From a virus: a stretch of 55,059 nucleotides of DNA. Made by a program: the position numbers and the translations under genes. A model generated the notes under the pieces. The model was not told the DNA's origin and searched no databases. It saw only the letters and a list, made by a program, of their open reading frames with translations. Below, one piece after another: positions 24,796-35,070 of the stretch (its first letter is position 1; every line of letters begins with the position of its first letter). The DNA is taken from positions 1 through 55,059 of IMG/VR virus record IMGVR_UViG_3300017963_000062; one strand, given 5' to 3'.

Positions 24796-25401
24796 ATGTC
24801 CAATATAACTAGGGAACAGTGGTTAAAAAGAATGGCAAAACACTTGAGCAGAGAGTTTAAACGGCAGTTTTACACAGTACCAGAAAACATAAGGGTATCA
24901 TGTGGTTTGCCAAGTTCAAGAGCCTTTGGAGCTAAAAGGAAAACAATTGGCCAATGTTGGGACAAGGCCGCTTCAGACGATAAACATTTTGAAATATTTG
25001 TTAGTCCGACCGTGGACGATCCAATTGAAGTTGCCGCTACATTGGCTCATGAGATGGTTCACGCTGTCGTTGGTTTAAAGGCTGGACATAAAAAGCCATT
25101 TGTTGACTGCGCAAGATCCATAGGCTTGGAAGGCAAGCCAACGGCAACAGTGGCAGGTTTAAGACTAAAGGAATTTATAATTGCTGGACTCGAAAAAATA
25201 GGTCAATATCCACACGCCAAGATTGACTACTCAAGCAAAAAAAAGCAGGGCACAAGGCTTGTTAAGGTGGCTTGCCCTAACCAAGAGTGCGACTTTTTGG
25301 AAGAGCTTGGGAAGGTCTACAGTGTCAGAATGTCGGCGCAGGTCATCGAATACGGGCTACCTGCGTGCGGGTGTTGTCAAGAAACAATGGTGGAGGTCTA
25401 A
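24796..25401 (+). CDS. SprT-like zinc metallopeptidase
   Basis: A 201-residue protein. TLAHEMVHAVVG (His85, Glu86, His89) is the HExxH zinc motif, preceded by a strand (HFEIFVSPTVDDP) as in SprT/Spartan domains. A C-terminal zinc ribbon has CPNQECDF and YGLPACGCCQE. Spartan enzymes cut DNA-protein crosslinks in eukaryotes; phage SprT-like proteins have no settled role. First gene of the rightward early cassette, with AGGAG upstream, and linked to the RHH gene by TAA directly followed by ATG. A GTTTAAAC site lies in its coding part (24855). Confidence 0.8.
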   Translation: MSNITREQWLKRMAKHLSREFKRQFYTVPENIRVSCGLPSSRAFGAKRKTIGQCWDKAASDDKHFEIFVSPTVDDPIEVAATLAHEMVHAVVGLKAGHKKPFVDCARSIGLEGKPTATVAGLRLKEFIIAGLEKIGQYPHAKIDYSSKKKQGTRLVKVACPNQECDFLEELGKVYSVRMSAQVIEYGLPACGCCQETMVEV

Positions 25402-27023: not shown

Positions 27024-27233
27024 ATGATTACAATATTGTCAAAAAAGACTGAATATCATTTGAAGATTGGCAGCGAGCGTTTCTTTTTTATAATCGATGA
27101 AAATAGATACAGGCTTGAAGACGCAGACGGAAACGAATATGCAAACAGCATGGGCCTTGCGAAATCGCCTAAATTTTTGAAAATACTTGAAGCGTGTCGC
27201 GACAAAGTAAAGCATGGGTATTGTAAGGTATAG
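27024..27233 (+). CDS. Unknown protein (69 aa) whose 3' end runs into pentamer array A
   Basis: MITILSKKTEYHLKIGSERF, beta then helix. The last ~27 bases (27207-27233) already follow the GYNNN phase of the array that starts here, so the last codons (KHGYCKV) are made of array units. Function unknown. Confidence 0.5.
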   Translation: MITILSKKTEYHLKIGSERFFFIIDENRYRLEDADGNEYANSMGLAKSPKFLKILEACRDKVKHGYCKV

Positions 27234-27590
27234 TATCGTTTTGGTGGAGTGGGTCAGAGTCATGTAAAGTAACGGCTGGGTGGAGCATCTTCTGGCAAAG
27301 GCTATGCAAGGTGAGGCGATAAATAGTTTAGTTTAGTTCAGTTTTGGTAAAGTGATGCATAGTTGAGTGTTGGCAATGTTTTGTTGAGCAGTCCAATGCT
27401 ATGGCAAAGTTATGGTTAGGTAATGTGTAGTGCAATTCAGTTTTGGTAAAGTGAGGTAATGTTGAGTATTGGCAATGTTTTGTTAAGCAGTCAAATGTTA
27501 TGGCAAAGTTAGGCGCAGTTTTGGTTTAAGTAATGGCAGGGTAAAGCGCGGTCAGTTACTGTTGTGGTTAGGTGTTGCGTATTTCAGTTG
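27207..27590 (+). repeat. Pentanucleotide (GYNNN) phased array A
   Basis: From 27207 the + strand can be cut into units GTAAA, GCATG, (G)GTATT, GTAAG, GTATA, GTATC, GTTTT and so on, almost all starting with GT or GC, five bases apart. Six-base steps appear where an extra G precedes the unit. A 76-bp stretch (27337-27412) is repeated at 27436-27511 with a few differences. There is no coding frame of note. C is rare outside the second unit position. The gap of about 375 bases after the stop at 27233 is filled by it. Confidence 0.85.
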
Positions 27591-27608
27591 GGAAAGGATA
27601 AAACAAAA

Positions 27609-28124
27609 ATGAATATTGATGGAATAAGAGAAAAAGTTGTAAGGAACATTACTGGCGGTGTTGACGAAAAAATAAAGATAAAAAGAGAATCTAGTTCAGA
27701 TACAAGAACGTGTGATTATACTAAAGTTACAAAGGAAGAGCTTTACAAAAACTCACTATCACATATAAGTGATGTAAATCTAGGAATTAGTTATTTAATA
27801 AGAAAATTGAGAGAAGCCGCGCTTTTGCACGATGTTACAAAAACGTATGATATCGATAAATTCTACAACGACTTTAAAACAGGCTTTGAAAACACTGATT
27901 GGTGGGAAGAACATCAAAAAGTGGAAAGGCACCATTTTAATGATGGAAAATATATCCAAGATGATATCAACTTGATTGATGTACTTGAGCAAATTGTTGA
28001 TGGAGTGATGGCTGGCATGGCCAGAACAGGTAAATATCGACACGAGCCAATCAGCAATGAATTACTGCAAAGAGCATACAATAATACAGCAAAACTTTTA
28101 ATTGACAATACTTCAGTCGTATAA
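27609..28124 (+). CDS. Conserved phage protein with HD-like helical core (171 aa)
   Basis: Starts MNIDGIREKVVRNITGG with AAAGGA upstream. SHISDVNLGISYLIRKLREAALLHDVTKTYD, FKTGFENTDWWEEHQKVERHHFN and INLIDVLEQIVDGVMAGMARTG form a pattern (H..DV, HD.TK, WW..H..., RHH) that I recognise as a widespread phage protein of unknown role. The paired HD and RHH may be metal ligands as in HD hydrolases (inference). It lies between arrays A and B. Confidence 0.65.
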   Translation: MNIDGIREKVVRNITGGVDEKIKIKRESSSDTRTCDYTKVTKEELYKNSLSHISDVNLGISYLIRKLREAALLHDVTKTYDIDKFYNDFKTGFENTDWWEEHQKVERHHFNDGKYIQDDINLIDVLEQIVDGVMAGMARTGKYRHEPISNELLQRAYNNTAKLLIDNTSVV

Positions 28125-28138
28125 GGAGAATGTTAATA

Positions 28139-28426
28139 ATGGGTGGAATACTTTTTAAAGGGCAATTGGGTGAAAAAGGGAACATGCGGCTGAATGCGAC
28201 GGAGTCTTTCCCGCTTTATCTTATGTTTCTTTTTTCATGTGAGGAGGAGCCACATTCAAAGGAGGCAAAAGACAGCGTTCGAGGATTTTTTGAAAAAGCC
28301 TTTGCCGAACTGCTTGACCAGGTTTTTTCCAAGTATGAAGCGGTAAAATTTGATTTTAATAAGACGCCAGAAGAAAACTACAAGATTCTTCGAAATTATC
28401 TGGAGAAGGAAAAGGCAAATGCATGA
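28139..28426 (+). CDS. Unknown protein (95 aa)
   Basis: MGGILFKGQLGEKGNMRLNA, with AAGGAG eleven bases upstream. An ATG nine bases earlier is too close to that site. Helical C-terminus FEKAFAELLDQVFSKYEAV. Ends eight bases inside the next gene. No family recognised. Confidence 0.5.
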   Translation: MGGILFKGQLGEKGNMRLNATESFPLYLMFLFSCEEEPHSKEAKDSVRGFFEKAFAELLDQVFSKYEAVKFDFNKTPEENYKILRNYLEKEKANA

Positions 28427-28787
28427 CATCAACACGTTTTACAAGTTGGACGAAAACAACGAAGTGCAGATCATGTCGCCGGAAGAGGTCGAAAGATTCG
28501 ATTGGAAGAGTCGCTGGCACATGAAAAGCAAAGCAGGCGTCGTGACTGTGTCAACAATTTTTCTTGTTATAAATCACAGATGGTTTGCTGGCAAGGCTCC
28601 ATTGTTGTTTGAAACCTGTCTGTTTCATGATGCCACGAATGAATCCTTGATGGTCCAAAGATATGAAACAGCTAAAGAAGCAGAAAAAGGTCATGATTAT
28701 TGGTGCGCAACAGTCAGAAGCAGACTTGGGATACTTCTTGAAGAACCAGTTAATAATCTCGATTTCATGCGAGAAAGTGTTCAATAA
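28419..28787 (+). CDS. Unknown protein (122 aa)
   Basis: MHDINTFYKLDENNEVQIMS with AAGGAAAAGG upstream. Central strands around VVTVSTIFLVINHRWF and LLFETCLFHD, then a helix YETAKEAEKGH. The strand-turn-helix pattern suggests a small alpha/beta fold. No function inferred. Confidence 0.5.
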   Translation: MHDINTFYKLDENNEVQIMSPEEVERFDWKSRWHMKSKAGVVTVSTIFLVINHRWFAGKAPLLFETCLFHDATNESLMVQRYETAKEAEKGHDYWCATVRSRLGILLEEPVNNLDFMRESVQ

Positions 28788-28807
28788 ACATATCTTTATT
28801 GATCACC

Positions 28808-28842
28808 GGCGTAACATTGTTAACTTGCCGGCTTTATTTATA
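28808..28842 (+). terminator. Possible terminator after the 28.4-kb gene
   Basis: CCGGC, a 16-base loop, GCCGG and then CTTTATTTAT. The U-tract is imperfect, so termination may be partial. The rest of the 28788-28926 gap is A+T-rich and ends in a GTTTAAAC site (28917). Confidence 0.4.
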
Positions 28843-28926
28843 AAACAGAATTTATAGGGGTTTAATGATCACTTATAAATGCAGCTGAAATCTTTAACAG
28901 AATATTAAAAGGAATCGTTTAAACGC

Positions 28927-29172
28927 ATGGAAAAGAGAATTATCATAAATCCGACAAAGGAACAGTTTGATGATATTGGCAAGACTTATGAAATTTTAAT
29001 TTTTCTTATGGGCAAAGACGGTCTTCACCTCGCTTGCAACAGGATATTGAATGAGGTCTTGGCCGACATGAAAAGGAAGGGGTTAACAGAAGATAAGATC
29101 AAAGATATGTTTACACAAAGTATAACAAACGCTATCGATATAGCTTTTAAGCAAAATGACCTTGGAGTGTAA
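28927..29172 (+). CDS. Unknown helical protein (81 aa)
   Basis: MEKRIIINPTKEQFDDIGKT, mostly helical. The start codon lies two bases after a GTTTAAAC site, which separates it from AAAGGA, so a protein bound there or the longer spacing could affect translation. Its stop codon is inside the first units of array B. No family recognised. Confidence 0.5.
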   Translation: MEKRIIINPTKEQFDDIGKTYEILIFLMGKDGLHLACNRILNEVLADMKRKGLTEDKIKDMFTQSITNAIDIAFKQNDLGV

Positions 29173-29471
29173 TGTTTCTGTAAGGTTGTGTGGTGTAGTT
29201 TGGGTATAGTGGAGTTGTGTGAAGTTATGGTTAGGTAAAGTTAGGTTTATTAAGGTACTCGTTGGCTAAGTTAAGTTTTGTAAAGTTCTTGGCTAAGTTA
29301 AGCAGCGTTGGGTTTGGATCATGTATAGTTTTGTAATGTTATGGTTAGGCAAAGTTAGGTTTATTAAGGTACTCGTTGGCTAAGTTAAGCAGCGTAGGGT
29401 TTGGGTTATGTATAGTTTTGTAACGTTTTTGGCTAAGTCAAGTATGATCTTGTTTATAGTCATAAAGTTGG
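29169..29471 (+). repeat. Pentanucleotide (GYNNN) phased array B
   Basis: Units GTAAT, GTTTCT, GTAAG, GTTGT, GTGGT and on to the ribosome site region of the next gene. A 52-bp block (29224-29275) recurs at 29338-29389, and a block around 29290-29340 recurs at 29377-29430. Six-base steps again show an added G. No coding frame. Fills the 300-base gap before the next ORF. Confidence 0.85.
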
Positions 29472-29514
29472 AATGGACAGTAAAAAATTATCAGAAATAA
29501 GTGAAAGGAAAAAA

Positions 29515-30387
29515 ATGTTTAAGTATATCAATATCAAGTATAAGTTGGTGGCAGAGCAATTAGGCACATGCACAGAGGCCAGCATTTACCATGAGCATGT
29601 TTTAAAAAAGGCTCAAAAGGAGATAAAAAAGGCCAATAGAATGCATAAAAAAGCAACCAAGGCGTTTGAAAAATTTAACGGCTGTGACGAAATATCAGAA
29701 ATTAAAGAGGTTGTGGAATTGCAGAGTATTATAAGATCTTACCAAGAGTGTTTAGGTAAAAAAGATCCTTTACCAGATAACCCGGAGGAGTTAATAGCTT
29801 ACTCCAAGGTTTGCGAAGAAGAATTTGACGCTATGGTTGCAGAAGGACAACAGCAAAAAGCAACGATATTTATGAAAGATGAGAATGGTTGGCCAAGAAT
29901 ATCGACGCACATGTTTTTAGGCAACTTCAAAGAAAATGCTAAAATAATAGCAAACAACAGCACCTTGGCAAAAGAAAAAAAGATGTTTAAGTCCAAAGTA
30001 TCCGTACAAGAAATGTTAACAATGGACGTTAAGCCAATCCAACCATTTGTTAAACCGTCGGAGGATATTATTAAAGACGATGATGGAAAACCAGTAATAT
30101 GCGAGAGGCCAATAAGGTTTGAACGGATGGGAAAAACCGAAACTGCGATAGCACTGAGCGAGCAACTTCCTATAGGAACAGAATACAGCGTGGATTTTAG
30201 GGTACGAGGTGACTCGCCTTTTGCTGACAATAAATTCCAAATTATTAAAGACCTTTTGGAATGTGGGAAAAATTGCGGTTTGGGGCAATGGCGTGGGTCC
30301 GGTGGCAAAGGCGCTTACATGTACAAAATAAAGGAAATTAAAAAATCTGAAATAAAACAAGATCCAAGATTCGCTGGCTGGAACTGA
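29515..30387 (+). CDS. Array-flanked protein with a RAMP-like glycine-rich C-terminal motif (290 aa)
   Basis: Start chosen at the ATG at 29515 with GAAAGGAAAAAA upstream; an ATG at 29473 has no good site. Residues 1-90 are helical and basic. The middle has GWPRISTHMFLGNFKENAKI, then VQEMLTMDVKPIQPF, ERPIRFERMGKTETAIALSE and GTEYSVDFRVRG. The C-terminus has LLECGKNCGLGQWRGSGGKG, which resembles the G-rich loop of RAMP proteins (Cas5/6/7). The resemblance is from pattern only. It is the sole gene bordered on both sides by the pentamer arrays, so it is the best candidate to bind or process their RNA. Confidence 0.6.
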   Translation: MFKYINIKYKLVAEQLGTCTEASIYHEHVLKKAQKEIKKANRMHKKATKAFEKFNGCDEISEIKEVVELQSIIRSYQECLGKKDPLPDNPEELIAYSKVCEEEFDAMVAEGQQQKATIFMKDENGWPRISTHMFLGNFKENAKIIANNSTLAKEKKMFKSKVSVQEMLTMDVKPIQPFVKPSEDIIKDDDGKPVICERPIRFERMGKTETAIALSEQLPIGTEYSVDFRVRGDSPFADNKFQIIKDLLECGKNCGLGQWRGSGGKGAYMYKIKEIKKSEIKQDPRFAGWN

Positions 30388-30399
30388 CCATCTTTTAGG

Positions 30400-30746
30400 G
30401 CAAAGTGGGGGTAAGGCGTGGTGCAATAAAGTAGAGTGACAGTTTTGTCGAGTTAGATAAAGCAGCGTGGGGGTAAGGTGGGTTATCGTCCCGCGTAGGC
30501 AAAGCCTAGCGTAATACCGTCAGTGTATTGTATAGTAAAGGTACGACGCGTTAAAGTAAAGTGACAGTTTTGTCGAGTAAGACAAAGTTGCGTGACAGTT
30601 AGGTCCGGTCGAGCATAGTAGGGGTATGGTAAAGTTAGGTTATGGTAGTTTATGGCGTAGTGGCGTAGTGGTGGAGCCATGCATAGTTGCATCCTGTAGT
30701 TGCAATGTTTTACAACGTCATGCACAGCGAGGTTACGGTGAAGTTA
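30400..30746 (+). repeat. Pentanucleotide (GYNNN) phased array C
   Basis: Units GCAAA, GTGGG, (G)GTAAG, GCGTG, GTGCA and so on. The stretch beginning AGAGTGACAGTTTTGTCGAG (about 30433) recurs with small changes about 125 bases later. It contains more GC-type units than arrays A, B and D. The region 30388-30737 has no credible gene. The array runs into the start of the next small gene. Confidence 0.8.
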
Positions 30747-30965
30747 ATTAAATATTTGATACTAAATCAAATTTTGGAAGAAGATGAACATGATAAACAA
30801 CTGTACCATGACCATCTGATGACTCGACGCCTGGAGCACTTGAAAACCACGGAAGATACTATTAAAAGGCTTTTGGAGGTTAGAGAGAGTCACAAAAAAA
30901 AACTTATTTTGCTTGAGAAAAAAATAAAGGATTTGAAGCGGTTTAGTCGAGGTAAGGTCGAGTGA
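30738..30965 (+). CDS. Small coiled-coil protein between arrays C and D (75 aa)
   Basis: GTG start at 30738 with GAGG upstream; an ATG at 30687 lies inside array C. Sequence MVKLIKYLILNQILEEDEHD followed by a charged, helical coiled coil rich in Lys and Glu. The last eight codons are made of array D units (GTTTA, GTCGA, GGTAAG, GTCGA). No family recognised. Confidence 0.5.
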   Translation: MKLIKYLILNQILEEDEHDKQLYHDHLMTRRLEHLKTTEDTIKRLLEVRESHKKKLILLEKKIKDLKRFSRGKVE

Positions 30966-31540
30966 AGTGGAGTCAAGTTAAGGTTGTTCAATGTGAAGTG
31001 TCGCTTTGGTAAAATAGCGTCGAGTATCGCATAGGTTGACTGGAGTAAGGTAAAGTTATGGTTATTCAAAGTGAAGTATCGCTATGGTAAAGTATCATCG
31101 TGTTCGGTAGTGTTAAAGTAAGGTCTAGTATCATTTTGTGGAGCAGCGGTTGAGTTAAGTTGCGTAATTTTATGTCGAGTATTGCACAGGTAAAGTAGCA
31201 TTGTGTTCGGTAGTGGTAAAGTAAGGTCTAGTATCGTTTTGGTGGATTAATGCAAGGTCTTGCAGCGGTTGAGTTAAGTTGCGTAATGTTATGTCGAGTA
31301 TCGTTGAGTGAAGTTGAGTATTGGTTAAGTTGAGTCGAGTATCGTTGAGTGAAGTTGAGTATTGGTTAAGTTGGGTTAAGTTTTGTAGTGGTTAAGTAAA
31401 GTGTGGTAATGTTGAGTATTGGTTAAGTGAAGTTGAGTATTGGTTATGTTGAGTTAAGCAAGGTGAAGTCTTGGTATGTTGCAGCGATATGAAATAATGT
31501 TTAGGTAAAGTGAGGTAATGTTGAGTACATGTTGTTGTTA
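30941..31540 (+). repeat. Pentanucleotide (GYNNN) phased array D, the longest
   Basis: About 600 bases with the clearest phase. Around 31300-31450 units such as GTTGA, GTGAA, GTATT(G), GTTAA, GTCGA and GTATC alternate without break. A block from about 31103 recurs from 31208 with one insertion, and a 41-bp block at about 31306 recurs directly. No coding frame. The gap 30966-31653 holds this array, then a terminator for the opposing operon. Confidence 0.88.
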
Positions 31541-31561
31541 TTTCAAGCTTAGTTGGGCATG

Positions 31562-31597
31562 AAAAAACCCAGCTCATAAATTAATGAGATGGGTTAG
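31562..31597 (-). terminator. Terminator of the leftward 43.8-31.6 kb region
   Basis: On the minus strand AACCCATCTCAT, loop, ATGAGCTGGGTTTTTT: an interrupted stem of about 11 pairs followed by six T. It would keep leftward transcription out of the arrays. Confidence 0.7.
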
Positions 31598-31653
31598 GAA
31601 AGGAAATTGTTATGAATTTTCATAATTAAATATGCTTACACCATTAAATATGC

Positions 31654-34309: not shown

Positions 34310-34948
34310 TTATTCAATGTTTTTATAATGACCTTTCCTAAAATCTGAACCCTTGATCTTACAAATGATTCTATCTCCATTTCTGGCAAACATACCCAAT
34401 TTAGGAGTTAATACCATCCCCTCTGATTCGAGATCACCCAATTGAGATTTCATTCCATTTTTCACTACATCAAGTGCATTTCTTAACGTACCTCTATAAA
34501 CCACTGGCACTGCCTTTAAACCCAACTCGTTGGCTATCTCATCAACACTTTCTCTATTTAACCACCATTGGCCTATCATGACATCAAAAAGGATGAAATC
34601 TACTTCTTTTCCAAGGTAGTGTTTACCTGCACTTTGAATCTTATGACCGTATCCCTCGCCATACAGATATACAGAGGTTTCTCCAAACATCTCTTTAAAA
34701 TCTATCGTGCTTATTATCTCATCAAGTCTCTTATCCAAATGCTCTGGGATCTTTGATTTATCTGATCTTCCGAATTTGGAAACTTCACCATCTACGTATT
34801 GAATACTAATGTTGGTTCCGTCAACCTTTTCAGTACCAACCCATTCAAGGTCAAACAGATATTCAAATTCTGGCCTGGCAAACTCATTTGTGAAGTCGCC
34901 TTTTTCATCTCTCATATAAAGAGAGTTTATTTTGTGATACTTTCGCAT
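34310..34948 (-). CDS. Rnl2-like RNA ligase (212 aa)
   Basis: Nucleotidyltransferase motif I is EKVDGTN (Lys41 is the adenylated residue). Motif III-like YLYGEGYGHKIQ, motif IV ESEGMVLTP and motif V ICKIKGSDF follow at the expected spacing. Short phage RNA ligases of this kind reseal tRNAs cut by host anticodon nucleases. It lies 50 bases from a tRNA gene in the same direction, which fits. AAGGAT upstream. Confidence 0.85.
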   Translation of the reverse strand: MRKYHKINSLYMRDEKGDFTNEFARPEFEYLFDLEWVGTEKVDGTNISIQYVDGEVSKFGRSDKSKIPEHLDKRLDEIISTIDFKEMFGETSVYLYGEGYGHKIQSAGKHYLGKEVDFILFDVMIGQWWLNRESVDEIANELGLKAVPVVYRGTLRNALDVVKNGMKSQLGDLESEGMVLTPKLGMFARNGDRIICKIKGSDFRKGHYKNIE

Positions 34949-34998
34949 GATTTTATCCTTAAAATTGCCATGATGTTAATTTCTACTCCACGTTTAAA

Positions 34999-35070
34999 CA
35001 GGCTGGGAAGGACTTGAACCCTCTTCTAAAGATTTGGACTCTTTTGTTTTACCCGTTAAACTACCAGCCT
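34999..35070 (-). tRNA. tRNA-Trp (anticodon CCA)
   Basis: Folded by hand: acceptor AGGCUGG/CCAGCCU (7 pairs), D stem GUUU/AAAC, anticodon stem AAAGA/UCUUU with loop GUCCAAA (U33, anticodon CCA), variable AGAA, T stem GAGGG/CCUUC with loop UUCAAGU, discriminator G. CCA is not encoded. Its discriminator base is the last base of a GTTTAAAC site (34992-34999). Its 5' end overlaps the stop of the preceding gene. Confidence 0.93.

Follow-up and report, generated by a model that had tools for sequence, protein, structure and literature searches.

The stretch of virus DNA analysed here (the window, 55,059 nucleotides, the whole of IMG/VR record IMGVR_UViG_3300017963_000062) carries on its + strand four long arrays of five-base units, each beginning with G and a pyrimidine (GY) followed by three variable bases (NNN), and between the second and third of them a gene for a 304-amino-acid protein that, judged from its sequence and from profile comparisons, is a RAMP (Cas7-like) protein and a relative of Vipr. 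Arrays with the same grammar stand beside RAMP genes in dozens of other phages. We consider it very probable that the arrays are the guide-RNA genes of a divergent phage VIPR (Viral Interference Programmable Repeat) system, in which guide function, DNA binding with a one-nucleotide skip and silencing would carry over by analogy from the literature on other Vipr proteins. Such systems became known in April 2026; the consensus of GY alone, the length of the arrays and the mixed five/six-base register go beyond the main text of their description (PMC13142463).

According to that text, VIPR, described in April/June 2026, combines a phage RAMP protein with guides termed vrRNAs, which consist of 9-16 YNNGG repeats with the consensus GGY/NN or "a related consensus", and whose variable bases address double-stranded DNA with a one-nucleotide skip, so that competing phages are silenced; for SUSP1 VIPR, binding was shown to block transcription of competitor phage or satellite genes (PMC13142463). 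The Vipr protein is characterized by an RRM core, a G-rich loop and a thumb domain kinking the guide, the vrRNA by a 3' tail, and the system by an accessory gene, vap; seven types are distinguished, one of them with "staggered arrays with overlapping vrRNAs", and VIPR is proposed as an ancestor of CRISPR (PMC13142463). The statement of the first-pass annotation that no phage element with a five-base unit had been described has therefore been overtaken by what this preprint reports.

Four phased arrays around a vipr-like gene

The arrays and the gene are arranged as follows, where z gives the excess of GY pairs at a lag of five bases over 300 dinucleotide shuffles:

27207..27590, + strand: array 1, about 74 GY-NNN units, a candidate vrRNA precursor (z 8.5, and segmentation)
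29169..29471, + strand: array 2, about 59 units, ending where the vipr-like gene begins (z 8.7)
29473..30387, + strand: vipr-like RAMP gene, 304 amino acids, between arrays 2 and 3; alternative start at 29515
30400..30746, + strand: array 3, about 67 units, beginning 13 bases past the stop codon of the vipr-like gene (z 6.2)
30941..31560, + strand: array 4, about 116 units, longer and more regular than the other three (z 11.8)

The lag-five excess over dinucleotide-shuffled sequence, the check that the first-pass annotation had proposed, was borne out in every array (z 6.2-11.8), and GY pairs echoed it at two and three times that lag (10 and 15). Both strands of the 55 kb were scanned, which found the signal above threshold nowhere outside the four arrays, and on the + strand only; the periodicity is thus confined to them and does not run through the coding regions. 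C is indeed scarce within the arrays (6.6-13.5%), and array 4 extends to about 31560, somewhat beyond the 31540 given earlier. The start of array 1 falls within the 3' end of an open reading frame (27024-27233), and array 2 contains an internal near-duplicate of roughly 120 nucleotides.

The vipr-like gene is flanked by the noncoding arrays 2 and 3, both at most 13 bases away. Its predicted product comprises a strand b1 (16-30), a long helical insertion (42-130, about 90 amino acids, which appears in the protein's own model) and, near the C end, a G-rich loop GLGQWRGSGGKG. The loop GLGQWRGSGG corresponds to the G-rich loop that characterizes Vipr as a RAMP protein.

The same pairing in other phages

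A first scan of IMG/VR searched for eight consecutive GTNNN units and yielded, among the matches listed, degenerate pentamer arrays in at least 81 loci (81 of 126); these arrays keep to a single strand throughout each contig, follow per-phage consensus sequences such as GGY-NN, GTC-NN, GTT-NN and GTG-NN, and lie in contigs with G+C fractions of 0.28-0.70, GY being fixed and three bases free both within contigs and across unrelated ones. When the proteins of these loci were clustered, one family was present in at least 45 loci, at a median distance of 5 bases from the array. This family is phrog_4652, unannotated as to function, whose profile (29 rows, the window among them) matches PDB entry 36pp, "SUSP1 Vipr protein", at 1e-27. 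A hidden Markov model of the same family built without the window matches the open reading frame 29473-30387 with E 1.2e-7. A tree of the first-scan Vipr proteins put the window protein on an end branch of 5.6, and its placement there was not trusted.

A second scan, with a pattern containing one six-base step, returned 92 stretches and placed arrays in 80 loci including the window (79 others), on contigs of up to 277 kb and with up to 317 units per array. The protein clade of the window was present in 43 of these loci; all 44 genes (44/44) lay on the strand of the array, at a median of 4 bases from it, and the array mostly follows immediately 3' of the gene. The profile of this clade matches the Cas7 of type VII CRISPR (E 7.8e-7), and its match to the 36pp Vipr is weak (E 0.37). 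An AlphaFold2 model of one clade member (L139) reached a predicted local distance difference test score (pLDDT) of 92, and its top Foldseek matches were all Cas7/Csm3 RAMPs (E 1.2e-7, probability 1.0); the best BFVD match was a viral structure labelled "Cas system-associated RAMP superfamily protein".

The homologue in locus L166 is 50% identical to the 304-amino-acid protein (E 8e-87) and is accompanied by arrays of the same grammar, and the terminase of L166 is 39% identical to that of the window. A blastn comparison of the window with the L166 contig gave no nucleotide match whatever. Between these two closest relatives the array grammar is conserved and the letters are not, the arrays having no detectable similarity. 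Searches for close relatives with single terminase or vipr protein queries gave few or none, and the window has no close relative among isolated phages.

Several other loci deserve a note of their own. Two families, typified by L034:3392-3874 and L045:2625-3119 (the latter phrog_15946), lie within about 30 bases of the arrays in at least 15 and at least 9-10 first-scan loci, respectively, and are candidate vap accessory genes. The arrays of at least 17 of 45 first-scan loci, L098 and L106 among them, have their GT strand opposite to the vipr gene, and units read in the gene's sense become GAC-NN, CAC-NN or similar, suggesting either antisense guides or another consensus. The array L021:7876-8459 consists of blocks of about 20 GTC-NN units, between which some 37 constant bases, GTCAGGAAAAACAGCCTCCTTGTCTGAGTGATAAACAC, are repeated; long variable blocks thus alternate with constant spacers in a layout like that of CRISPR. 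The arrays L045:2090-2627, L025:4588-5056 and L104:10708-11043 repeat a constant short word (GCAG, GCTAATGG and GTCG, respectively) about every 7-13 units, words that are perhaps guide borders. The RAMP clade of the window is also found in L222, L223 and L224, contigs binned as bacteria including WOR-3 and Desulfobacterales, which may be prophages or phage contigs.

A recurring six-base step

Segmentation of the window arrays gave about 280 steps, 185 of them of 5 nucleotides, 54 of 6 and 32 of 10, the last representing units in which GY has been lost. The first-pass annotation had attributed occasional six-base steps to an extra G; the added base is indeed mostly G (44 of 54), but the steps recur regularly, 35 of the 54 groups between them containing 5 or 6 units. 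They are commoner after a pyrimidine (36/85) than after a purine (18/151; p 2.5e-7), and GY autocorrelation in the window has maxima at 26, 31, 52 and 57 nucleotides (z 5-8 against unit shuffles). The base preceding GY is free (A 52, G 20, T 19 and C 9%).

At least 12% of steps are six-base in 68 of the 80 second-scan loci; the pattern of that scan itself demands one such step, and the window, which was not picked by it, holds dozens. Across this class, the groups between six-base steps contain 5 units in 29.5%, 6 units in 25.7% and 7 units in 15.8% of cases, compared with 8, 7 and 6% after shuffling, and the mean spacing is 5.170±0.024 nucleotides per unit over 53 loci. In first-scan families, six-base steps amount to 0-10%, a figure to be read with the fact that the first-scan pattern selected against them; the arrays of other Vipr families stay at a spacing of 5.0 or carry 4-, 7- or 8-nucleotide punctuation.

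What the variable bases carry

As a measure of the code, we used the adjacency typical of natural DNA between the variable bases n2, n3 and n4 of a unit. In the 5/6 class to which the window belongs, it was strong for n2n3 (z 12) and n3n4 (z 6.0) and also linked n4, beyond the intervening GY, with the n2 of the following unit (z 3.6), reaching z 5.3 there over five-base and 0.4 over six-base steps; between n3 and the following n2 it was about 0. In first-scan families, mainly one pair carries the statistic, namely n2n3 in GGY arrays and n3n4 in GTC, GTT and GTG arrays. Stops in the n2n3n4 frame are depleted by about 10% in the class (413 vs 457±14). At the level of the class, these results fit three target bases per unit, in line with the skip rule already published, the third base still deriving in part from the target.

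Readings of the variable bases as a hidden protein did not hold up. Array 4 read as n3-n4-n2 has 4 stops in 115 codons, but shuffling the order of units gives 3.4±1.4, so that its protein-like look is due to composition; a PHROGs search with four decoded peptides gave no convincing match, and a wobble test in the window gave z about 0. A codon 1-2 signature looked strong at first, but codon 2-3 and 3-1 matrices fit equally, and it therefore reflects plain neighbour statistics of natural DNA. Internal duplicates, considered as a record of mutation, were nearly as numerous in shuffled arrays. An array of the clade from a human-gut phage, L220:6598-6808, decodes in n2n3n4 as 41 stop-free codons, GIFKYLIFSANAIVNGSKALTYVEYIYMKILAFIYNVRVTK, where 1.9±1.0 stops are expected by chance; no target was found for it.

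Comparison with VIPR and CRISPR

The locus resembles the VIPR of SUSP1 / P. fulva type II (36pp) in its minimal layout, a small phage RAMP gene flanked by noncoding pentamer arrays, and in units whose G-pyrimidine is fixed while the other bases are hypervariable. It differs from the systems described in the main text of the preprint in the number of units (57-116 per window array, with relatives reaching 317), in lacking the units of about 100 nucleotides or the tails described there, and in the extra base that the window class adds every 5-7 units; the six-base recurring step, the GY-only consensus and long arrays do not appear in that text (PMC13142463). No vap gene was recognized, although the vap sequences themselves were not at hand for comparison. 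With respect to the 36pp Vipr, the RAMP clade is distant and the window protein carries its helical insertion of about 90 amino acids.

With Cas7/Csm3 of class 1 CRISPR, the closest solved structures being those of type VII Cas7 (8yhd/21bh), the protein shares the RAMP fold and the G-rich loop, and one would expect its subunits to sit along a guide RNA at a fixed interval, here of 5 (and 6) rather than 6 nucleotides. The arrays do not have the class 1 layout of direct repeats and unique spacers, and no other cas genes were seen beside them; among the tested genes adjoining arrays, PADLOC matched none to a defence system. The earlier remark that there is no spacer-repeat layout as in CRISPR is therefore literally right, yet the protein does relate the element to CRISPR.

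A number of observations weigh against a VIPR assignment. The units of the window lack the fixed GG of published vrRNAs, only GY and not GGY being constant, at least as far as the main text of the preprint defines them, and a tail structure behind each guide was not identified, the one hairpin following array 4 only. Direct comparison of the window protein with 36pp by phmmer was not significant (E 1.3), its own fold model was poor (pLDDT 68) with RAMP matches only at E > 0.5, and no accessory gene conserved beside the clade arrays was found. Furthermore, the window by itself is weak in the code statistic (n3n4 2.1, n2n3 0.4), having too little power; a local target search over 2 Mb stayed at the level of chance, and none of three exact guide patterns (one from the window, two from L220) had a match in IMG/VR.

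Alternative explanations

An improbable alternative is that the element acts at the DNA level, presenting one GY per half helical turn (2 x 5.17 = 10.3 bp) to a filament- or centromere-type DNA-binding protein. The very constant 5.170 nucleotides per unit, near half a turn of B-DNA, would suit it, but other Vipr families, with their 5.0 spacing or 4-, 7- and 8-nucleotide punctuation, exclude a general helical phase; moreover, the adjoining gene encodes a predicted RNA-binding RAMP, the clade's arrays are sense to it throughout (44/44), and variable bases that resemble natural DNA read across GY would be needless in a DNA landing site. Slightly less probable still is an RNA sponge or regulatory leader for a ring protein like TRAP (MtrB), whose RNA sites are short triplets at five-base spacing, about 11 units with (G/U)AG as fixed bases. 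Triplets with two spacer bases would yield the same period, and the arrays do lie in sense and adjoin genes; the associated family, however, is a RAMP with another fold, the fixed bases are GY, the variable bases carry the statistics of contiguous DNA where TRAP sites hold no hypervariable code, and arrays reach 317 units. The least credible of these alternatives, a neutral degenerate minisatellite arising by slippage and segmental duplication, could account for the near-duplicates of roughly 120 nucleotides and for the self-duplicated look of longer arrays, but hardly for GY being held while three bases vary within and across unrelated contigs (G+C 0.28-0.70), for one protein family within bases of the arrays, or for the regular spacing of the six-base steps.

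A different matter, concerning novelty and not mechanism, is whether the clade already figures among the seven types of the preprint, for example the one with staggered, overlapping vrRNAs, to which we give somewhat less than an even chance. The preprint names both a related consensus and staggered arrays whose vrRNAs overlap, and long uninterrupted arrays could be of that kind; on the other side, its main text puts a vrRNA at 9-16 repeats and mentions neither a recurring six-base step nor a missing first G (PMC13142463), and 36pp matches the clade profile weakly, as seen above. That the clade is instead an undescribed VIPR type, with three contiguous target bases per unit, an unread nucleotide per turn of about six subunits and very long or overlapping guides, is a tentative proposal that we regard as rather unlikely.

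A model for the VIPR-like locus

If the arrays are VIPR guide genes, they would be transcribed with the vipr-like gene as one operon, and the 304-amino-acid RAMP would polymerize along the long array transcripts, one subunit per GY-NNN unit, with GY anchoring each subunit; the extra base per about six units may then serve as a register correction of the filament. The transcripts would presumably be processed into guides, each unit of which would pair, through its variable bases, with three bases of a double-stranded DNA target, and binding would block transcription of competing phage or satellite genes, as for SUSP1 VIPR. Among the roles suggested by the first-pass annotation, two agree with VIPR, namely a guide transcript and an RNA scaffold on which a protein has a five-base footprint, since a RAMP gene lies between the arrays and the described vrRNAs are protein-bound pentanucleotide guides; a DNA filament site and a decoy found no support.

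Other features of the window

Two further features border the arrays:

30738..30965, + strand: small charged open reading frame, 75 amino acids, overlapping array 3 at its end and array 4 at its start
31566..31595, + strand: hairpin directly after array 4 (fold of 31540-31612, -20 kcal/mol, z -3.15)

A search for relatives of the small open reading frame found none. The hairpin likely marks a transcript end facing the convergent minus-strand genes, as its predicted fold suggests; it has no T-run after it on the + strand and is absent from the terminator-scan list. Immediately 3' of array 1, 27609-28124 encodes a protein with a weak HD/HDIG domain match and no relative among the other array loci. 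Upstream of the cassette lies a SprT-like gene (24796-25401), which shares about 40-46% identity with genes from numerous actinophages and from a few others and is called a transcription elongation protein in some records, and an RNA ligase gene (34310-35070) stands beside a tRNA-Trp gene on the minus strand. A search against Rfam returned nothing but tRNA.

Implications

VIPR is a very recent addition to the classes of RNA-guided DNA recognition, and the window leads to the Vipr protein independently, starting from the arrays alone. It adds a clade of phage RAMPs, on IMG/VR contigs of up to 277 kb, whose arrays are several-fold longer than published vrRNAs and follow a mixed 5/6-nucleotide register. 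If the undescribed geometry were true, a guide would specify whole triplets instead of NN with one base skipped. Should the register and the templated third base hold, they would inform on the reading of DNA by a RAMP filament and on the copying of new guide units from targets, the latter an unsettled point in how CRISPR memory arose.

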